From Fictibacillus enclensis (lineage in GTDB: Bacteria; Bacillota; Bacilli; Bacillales; Fictibacillaceae): a DNA stretch of 64,000 bases. The notes below the pieces were generated by a model, which saw only the letters and a program-made list of their open reading frames with translations, had not been told where the DNA came from and ran no database searches. Position 1 is the stretch's first letter, and every line of letters begins with the position of its first letter. The translations under genes were made by a program, and so were the position numbers. Below, piece by piece: positions 35,530-36,359 of the stretch. The stretch spans positions 496,001 to 560,000 of the forward strand of contig NZ_KQ758618.1 in NCBI RefSeq assembly GCF_001457035.1. Direction: 5' to 3'.

Positions 35530-35634
35530 ATGAATGTACTTGTTCCTGTTGAATGTCCACGATGCCACAGTGAAATTAAACAATTAAAACACAGTGTCCG
35601 CTGCAAATGCGGAATGAGAATGAAAAGAAAATAA
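35530..35634 (+). CDS. 34-aa zinc-ribbon-like protein
   Basis: A tiny basic protein with two metal-binding knuckles, CPRCH near residues 9-13 and CKCG near 26-29, ending in RMKRK. GTGAGG with 7-base spacing precedes ATG 35530. It lies 21 bases after the PerR-like gene and shares its terminator, so it is cotranscribed. It may bind zinc or nucleic acid; function unknown. Confidence 0.65.
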   Translation: MNVLVPVECPRCHSEIKQLKHSVRCKCGMRMKRK

Positions 35635-35675: not shown

Positions 35676-36062
35676 TTAGCTGCATATTGTAATTTCATCG
35701 TGATCCACACAACGCATGTTGTCACAGATGAGTCTTGTTTGAAAACGGTAGGAGACCGTTGATGAGGATGATAGAAGATCTTGCGGCAGTTGGTACGTTA
35801 GTGGAATTTCGATACTGCCATCGGAGGCGAGCTCTTTGGACATGTAGATGGTGGTTACAGACTCAATCATGTGTTCGGTTTTATCTTCAGTGTTATGAAG
35901 GATAAGGTCACACTCGAGCCTTTTTATAATCTGCTTCATCCATTTGCCTTTCAAGCGGAAATAGCCATTTACATTTTGACCGGGCTTCAGCTCGTTTGAG
36001 TCCAAAACTAAATCTATACTTGCCTGCCCTAGCTTGAAGAAGCTCATACATTTTTTTAACAC
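35676..36062 (-). CDS. Spo0M-like protein, single arrestin-type domain
   Basis: A 128-residue protein matching the first half of Spo0M: SFFKLGQASIDLVLDSNELK, PGQNVNGYFRLKG and a beta-rich remainder ending with the arrestin-like SIEIPLTYQLP segment. Spo0M of B. subtilis is about 258 residues and affects sporulation onset and cytoskeletal traits; the second half is absent here. GTG 36062 is used, with GGAGG 10 bases upstream; the ATG five codons on, which would match the Spo0M start, is too far from any site. A manganese riboswitch with promoter and terminator sits directly upstream. Confidence 0.75.
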   Translation of the reverse strand: MLKKCMSFFKLGQASIDLVLDSNELKPGQNVNGYFRLKGKWMKQIIKRLECDLILHNTEDKTEHMIESVTTIYMSKELASDGSIEIPLTYQLPQDLLSSSSTVSYRFQTRLICDNMRCVDHDEITICS

Positions 36063-36116
36063 GGTGATCAGACCTCCAGTTGATAATAGCCAATTGAAGA
36101 AAGTGATTGTTCAAGT

Positions 36117-36279
36117 AAAAAACCTTTACCTGTATTGTCCTGGTAAAGGTTTTAACATCTACAAAGACCTTTACCAGGTGGCAAAGGTGTCGCTACAACT
36201 AGATGTTGCCAGTTAAGCCGGTGATCAAGGAATCACGGGATGTCGACGTAACTGTCAGCTACTCCCCTTTGGAGTTAAT
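36117..36279 (-). promoter_or_regulatory. yybP-ykoY manganese riboswitch with expression-platform terminator
   Basis: Read on the minus strand, AAAGGGGAGTAGC (from 36270), GTCGACAT, the CGTGA...TCACCGG helix followed by CTT, and TAGCGACACCTTTGCC (to 36180) reproduce in order the conserved core of yybP-ykoY Mn2+ riboswitches. AAAGG and CCTTT close the P1 stem. After it comes a terminator hairpin, ACCTTTACC/GGTAAAGGT (36150-36142 with 36130-36122), and a T6 tract. A competing GGTAAAGGT at 36176-36168 overlaps the aptamer side and could form the alternative fold. Mn2+ binding is expected to turn expression on. Confidence 0.87.
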
Positions 36280-36330
36280 TTATATCAATTTTATAGTCGT
36301 TTGGTTCATCACTTCATCGATTCGATACCC

Positions 36331-36359
36331 ATTGTATACGCATGGATTAGTGATGTCAA
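36331..36359 (-). promoter_or_regulatory. SigA promoter of the riboswitch-controlled gene
   Basis: On the minus strand TTGACA (36359-36354) and TACAAT (36336-36331) are spaced by 17 bases, placing the start about 50 bases before the aptamer. Confidence 0.75.

Follow-up and report, generated by a model that had tools for sequence, protein, structure and literature searches.

Organization of the half-Spo0M locus

The window, by which we mean the whole analysed stretch of 64,000 nucleotides of Fictibacillus enclensis DNA, carries on its minus strand a complete transcription unit (36359-35676), in which a sigma-A type promoter is followed by a leader of about 260 bases and by a gene for a small protein with a single arrestin-like domain, referred to here as half-Spo0M (Table 1). 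A sequence-only reading of this DNA had described a TTGACA/TACAAT promoter with 17-base spacing, an aptamer core, a terminator hairpin with T6, a ribosome site and a GTG start, and each of them was found on the minus strand where it had been placed. Both promoter hexamers are kept in the genomes G002 to G006 of the same genus, including those in which the aptamer is damaged or lost. The regulator and katA that had been noticed beside the unit proved to be a Fur-family gene and a catalase gene, lying together on one side of half-Spo0M with an xdhC-type gene on the other, and this order is kept in all five of these genomes, as judged by the likeness of the neighbouring ORFs. In G001, where the sole protein match was a 285-aa frame, no half-size gene was found. 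F. solisalsi was the closest named relative found, with 98% identity across the half-Spo0M protein. Directly after the Fur-family gene, on the plus strand (35530-35634), we also observed a 34-aa ORF with CPRC and CKCG pairs resembling a zinc ribbon, and reading frames similar to it are present in G002 and G005.

Table 1. Features of the half-Spo0M transcription unit, in positions of the window
Feature	Position	Strand	Details
Sigma-A type promoter	36331..36359	-	TTGACA 36359-36354, 17-base spacer, TACAAT 36336-36331; read directly
yybP-ykoY (Mn2+) aptamer	36180..36273	-	RF00080 match spans 36157-36279; R1 score; covarying fold
L1 core GGGGAGTAGC	36258..36267	-	Adjoins P1 5' strand CAAAGG at 36271-36266
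C inside GACACC where relatives read AGACC	36189..36189	-	Sole exception among 83 linked aptamers
P1 3' strand CCTTTG	36182..36187	-	With 36181-36180 can pair instead with GGTAAAGG 36175-36168 (OFF state)
Antiterminator hairpin, 12 bp	36139..36178	-	CCTGGTAAAGGT 36178-36167 with ACCTTTACCAGG 36150-36139
Intrinsic terminator	36117..36151	-	AACCTTTACC 36151-36142 / GGTAAAGGTT 36130-36121, T6 at 36122-36117
Ribosome binding site GGAGG	36073..36077	-	Read directly
Half-Spo0M gene	35676..36062	-	GTG start from 36062, 128 aa, single arrestin-like domain

The product is a half-size relative of Spo0M

The downstream gene had been described as coding for one Spo0M-like domain, and this was borne out by the profile as well as by the fold. 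The protein matched PF07070 at 39.5 bits against a curated cut-off of 23, over profile positions 1-134 of 213, and since its 128 aa fall short of the full two-domain length we filed it as a half-size relative and not as Spo0M. A search of NCBIfam gave no family match for the protein and phmmer against the PDB found Spo0M weakly (E 0.025), so that the fold assignment rests on an AlphaFold2 model built from seven sequences, which is all-beta with a pLDDT of 74, and on a Foldseek search with this model, in which Spo0M (5cl2) was the best PDB match (E 5.6e-8), followed by arrestins, VPS26 and ARRDC3. By its sequence the product is predicted to be soluble. The dN/dS ratio was 0.03 against G004 and 0.10 against G003, the silent sites being saturated and no ratio obtained against G002, G005 and G006; by these ratios the half-Spo0M gene is under purifying selection.

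The leader carries an aptamer of the yybP-ykoY class

The assignment of the leader to the yybP-ykoY class, made in the sequence-only reading, stood with the Rfam model RF00080 under permissive filters, where the window scored 24.3 bits (E 1e-4) at 36157-36279(-) over the full model (1-177), and did not stand at the gathering score of 45 bits, at which there was no match in the window. This cut-off is strict for the order, as matches with E <= 0.001 occurred in 73 of 100 genomes (its own included) and exceeded the cut-off in 17. At E <= 0.001 the site is the sole RF00080 match in its own 4.5 Mb genome, and an RNA model, R1, likewise matched this place alone in that genome. The 26 aptamers on which R1 is based precede half-Spo0M genes and include that of the window, which with this membership scored 83.9 bits, the only match in the window, and fits R1 positions 1-98; the two nearest relatives scored close by, at 87.8 and 86.6 bits. 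The 26 aptamers align over their full length and their fold covaries, with 28 pairs, 12 of them changed on both sides, and 98.1% of cells paired; none of 500 shuffles was equally good, though the consensus fold and its score come from one and the same alignment, which favours the fold.

The window matches the P1, short helix, P3 with L3, and P4 fold of the RF00080 class. On the minus strand AAAGGGGAGTAGC (36270-36258) and TAGCGACACCTTTGCC, which ends at 36180, were read directly, and the conserved L1 core of RF00080 next to P1, GGGGAGUAGC, is exact in the window at 36267-36258. Among the 83 aptamers that we found linked to half-Spo0M genes (see below) AAGGGGAGTAGC is exact in 80. The L3 of the window reads GUCGACA where GUCGUCA is usual, so that the third base from its 3' end is an A instead of the U of most linked aptamers (ACA in 11 of the 83, TCA in 70). 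It retains the final CA, including the adenine of the Mn2+-contact position, which we take to be A41 in the numbering of the L. lactis structure.

Predicted switching of the leader

In the leader the P1 3' strand CCUUUGCC, the segment GGUAAAGG and the terminator arms CCUUUACC/GGUAAAGG together with T6 are three competing elements; the P1/antiterminator structure thus competes with the terminator structure, as in an ON switch that works by attenuation. Forced foldings of the window leader gave -55.1 kcal/mol for the OFF (terminated) state, -52.0 kcal/mol for the ON state (P1 with antiterminator) and -47.0 kcal/mol for P1 together with the terminator. From these energies P1 and the terminator are predicted to compete, and binding at P1 need add just a few kcal/mol; a ligand stabilising P1 to this extent would therefore turn the gene ON, as far as energy prediction on a single strand can tell. 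A terminator-like element lies 3' of the aptamer in 75 of the 83 linked leaders (at most two mismatches per arm).

We propose that with Mn2+ present P1 would be kept closed, leaving GGUAAAGG (36175-36168) available to pair with CCUUUACC in the 12-bp antiterminator, and once this hairpin had formed with CCUUUACC the terminator could not form. With Mn2+ absent the 3' strand of P1 would pair with GGUAAAGG, which would free CCUUUACC and let the terminator with its T6 form. The leader would then be a transcription-attenuating yybP-ykoY riboswitch through which plentiful Mn2+ turns half-Spo0M ON; the ON logic is a prediction from folding, and Mn2+ as the ligand is suggested by membership of the class.

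The aptamer is linked to half-Spo0M genes across the order

When the same aptamer was sought before Spo0M-like genes of relatives, it was present upstream of 83 of 132 half-Spo0M genes in two sets taken together, the remaining 49 lacking it by the criterion used; kinship of the sequences inflates these linkage counts and the Fisher values. The possibility that the gene stood behind such an aptamer in this strain only, by which the sequence-only reading could have fallen, is thus contradicted by a pairing that recurs widely. The first set came from a search of 100 genomes, in which protein and RNA were found adjoining in many families, and here 27 of 36 genes had an aptamer within 900 bases upstream. 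Of its 39 fetched loci, L105 (a 318-aa protein) and the divergent half-size L107 and L108 had been dropped before this count; neither L107 nor L108 has GGGAGTAG in the 1500 bases upstream, and including both gives 27 of 38. In the second set, fetched separately from 299 genomes of the order, the aptamer was found for 56 of 96 half-Spo0M genes among the matches listed, those taken reaching down to E 1.6e-29 and leaving out at least one half-size gene that stands lower in the list (G203, E 8e-28). One locus (L093, G084b) was counted as linked despite an internally deleted aptamer. The aptamer criterion found nothing when applied to the opposite strand of these upstream windows (0/132) or to same-strand downstream windows (0/129). 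Full-length Spo0M genes had no aptamer in any of 13 loci hand-picked among the longer proteins in the matches listed, and R1 found nothing at these same 13 loci.

A search of 36 of the 49 unlinked loci with R1 gave three matches, namely the damaged aptamers in G006 and G002, and a relic upstream of the G205 gene. This relic (L185) scores 24 bits; the GGGGAGTAGC core is missing from it, while AGCAAGACC and a hairpin resembling a terminator persist. All aptamer-labelled rows of a 141-protein tree fall on one side of a branch with support 98/90 (107 rows, 79 with aptamer), and the aptamer label needs 10 changes against a mean of 46 when shuffled; the tree is short and midpoint-rooted, with L076, L102, L136 and L183 left out and rows under 100 aa dropped. 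One early gain of the aptamer followed by several losses is the simplest reading of these labels, although the tree does not prove it, and the L185 relic, lying on the other side of the branch, hints that the link of aptamer and gene may be older still. By its distribution the pairing is old and widespread in the order. In five loci of one family (f28; L130, L133, L134, L138 and L150) we noticed a pair of half-Spo0M genes separated by about 5 kb, of which one has the aptamer and the other has none.

Variation of the aptamer within the genus

On the 3' side of L1, AGACC is present in 82 of the 83 linked aptamers and in all 29 other RF00080 aptamers, and the window reads ACACC; this C could make the aptamer of this strain weaker. 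In the sister genomes the aptamer before half-Spo0M has changed L1 letters in G006 (53.6 bits), an internal deletion in G002 (27.7 bits) and is completely deleted in G005, and all three retain gene, promoter and terminator despite the damage or loss. The C at 36189 and this damage in sister genomes make it appear that the genus is shedding aptamer control, the copy in the window being perhaps weakened. Such stepwise loss among species of a single genus supplies natural variants with which the worth of the switch could be gauged. G005 has elsewhere (L213) an intact Mn-type aptamer, which is followed by a small ORF and a lipoprotein-like gene.

Neighbours of the half-Spo0M genes

We searched for neighbouring genes within 900 bases upstream and 1300 bases downstream, leaving out L136, a second gene that is truncated where its piece ends. 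Around the aptamer-linked half-Spo0M genes (n = 82) TerC lay downstream in 28 and an FbpB-like ORF upstream in 41, DUF1232 was found downstream in 13 and upstream in 2, and CNNM in 4; one or two seeds per family were checked against Pfam, and relatedness makes these counts less independent. Around the unlinked genes (n = 49) TerC, FbpB-like, DUF1232 and CNNM neighbours were all zero, and as the search seeds came from linked loci, distant members of these families near unlinked genes could have escaped it. Among the recurrent neighbours, whose families are metal-handling or uncharacterised, we recognised no sporulation gene. These counts therefore indicate that half-Spo0M keeps company with metal handling and not with sporulation. 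Within the window's genus the unit is isolated, with neither TerC nor FbpB genes beside it, and the three clear TerC genes of the window's genome all lie elsewhere.

Several of these loci have arrangements worth recording. FbpB-like small ORFs stand between a Mn-type aptamer and half-Spo0M in several genomes (e.g. L081, L095, L099 and L113), and the two that were tested matched PF13040 (Fur-regulated basic protein B), which places a family named after Fur and iron under a Mn-type switch. Two loci (L095 in G053 and L132 in G186) have two aptamers in tandem with a spacing of about 510 bases; a DUF1232-like ORF follows the first, and an FbpB-like ORF and half-Spo0M follow the second. At L076 (G035) a half-Spo0M gene with an in-frame stop is followed by TerC, a second aptamer, a second TerC-like gene and CNNM. 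An RF00080 aptamer of 42.6 bits (L022 from 1507, G036) precedes a 57-aa His/Tyr-rich ORF and a protein-kinase-like gene (PF00069), and a small basic ORF like that of L022 follows the half-Spo0M gene of L099 (G021). Mn-type aptamers also precede DUF6376 lipoprotein-like genes at L020 (G010) and L213 (G005), where the family was named by a PF19903 match for L020 and by likeness to the L020 protein for L213; we suspect that this family is the YybP family, the namesake of the riboswitch, an identity for which half-Spo0M itself had also been considered.

Interpretation

Taken together, we consider it probable that the unit is a Mn2+-ON yybP-ykoY attenuator before half-Spo0M and that the protein serves in manganese homeostasis, a role to which the gene neighbours point. 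That the leader resembles a riboswitch by chance, for which the RF00080 score below the Rfam cut-off might speak, deserves practically no credence given the covariation, the recurrence before the same gene family and the empty antisense and downstream controls. The half-Spo0M aptamers could instead be variants with a different divalent metal, for example iron, as their ligand, as the FbpB-like ORFs upstream of half of the linked genes (41/82), the GUCGACA of the window in place of the common GUCGUCA, and the statement in the accessible part of PMC7266159 that some yybP variants likely answer to other divalent metals would suggest. We regard this as improbable, because most linked aptamers share their L1 and L3 letters with the mostly TerC-linked RF00080 aptamers of the order and because TerC itself so often lies just downstream. 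A more serious alternative, still unlikely in our judgement, is that the switch of the window strain is decaying, its aptamer binding Mn2+ poorly and its leader acting as a plain attenuator, as seemingly in the sister species; the unique G-to-C at 36189 and the three damaged or deleted sister aptamers with gene, promoter and terminator kept are what one would expect of it. Against decay, the remaining aptamer is intact and its R1 score is close to those of the nearest relatives, and one changed base on the 3' side of L1 could be tolerated, or could reflect an error in the assembly.

Sporulation needs Mn2+, and the sequence-only reading had proposed a Mn-switched protein of sporulation type; its first half held, in that a Mn-type aptamer and a terminator do precede half-Spo0M, and the sporulation link did not, the context being one of metal genes. 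As a lead reading this link was rejected, having no supporting context beyond the family name. That half-Spo0M is a Mn-switched sporulation regulator, as the family name and the Mn2+ requirement would allow, is very improbable to us, as no sporulation gene was recognised among the neighbours, the 13 full-length Spo0M genes are without the aptamer, and B. subtilis Spo0M is reported, in the accessible part of PMC5325327, to be active in vegetative growth as well.

Returning to the manganese-homeostasis reading, half-Spo0M could perhaps assist TerC-family Mn2+ exporters or metal chaperones, this TerC partnership being the weakest step. Eukaryotic arrestin-fold proteins are adaptors that steer transporters, and by this analogy half-Spo0M might be a Mn2+-induced arrestin-fold adaptor that binds TerC-family or CNNM proteins and tunes either the efflux of Mn2+ or how exported enzymes are loaded, an idea which we offer tentatively and as a rather doubtful one. 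If manganese homeostasis is the correct setting, an orphan protein family gains a testable function as an arrestin-fold protein under a Mn-type switch, the TerC metal chaperones gain a possible cytosolic partner, and a name is corrected, since proteins that match a family named for sporulation would have their place in metal homeostasis.

Comparison with known systems

The accessible parts of reports on this riboswitch class give as its targets putative cation transporters, TerC and other membrane proteins, and two B. subtilis expression studies mention both Spo0M and the word riboswitch. Our literature search found no paper joining yybP-ykoY and Spo0M, although Dambach 2015 and Price 2015 may list such genes, and none joining yybP and FbpB, manganese, riboswitch and TerC with 'sporulation protein', or TerC and DUF1232 with manganese. 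Compared with Spo0M (PF07070; 5cl2 of B. subtilis) the window protein has the same fold and a profile match above the curated cut-off, but it corresponds to the first half alone, and the full-length rows, none of whose 13 control genes has the aptamer, stand apart in the tree. Compared with the TerC/ykoY riboswitches (RF00080, Bacillales), the L1 letters, P1 and the 3' AGACC-CCTTT layout are the same and L3 mostly so, and R1, though built on half-Spo0M leaders, recovered all 15 of the other RF00080 loci given to it, mostly TerC-linked; the window differs by its C where all 29 of the other RF00080 aptamers, again mostly TerC-linked, have G. The half-Spo0M aptamer also differs in what it precedes, which is an arrestin-fold gene that either takes the place of a membrane exporter or precedes one. 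Unlike rows of the type of the TerC-family metal chaperones MeeF and MeeY, the window genome has its TerC genes elsewhere, with no further aptamer found there. In the order at large the half-Spo0M switch is kept across many families, often in a row with TerC, and it is in the 28 of 82 linked loci where aptamer, half-Spo0M and TerC share one row that the likeness to MeeF and MeeY is seen.
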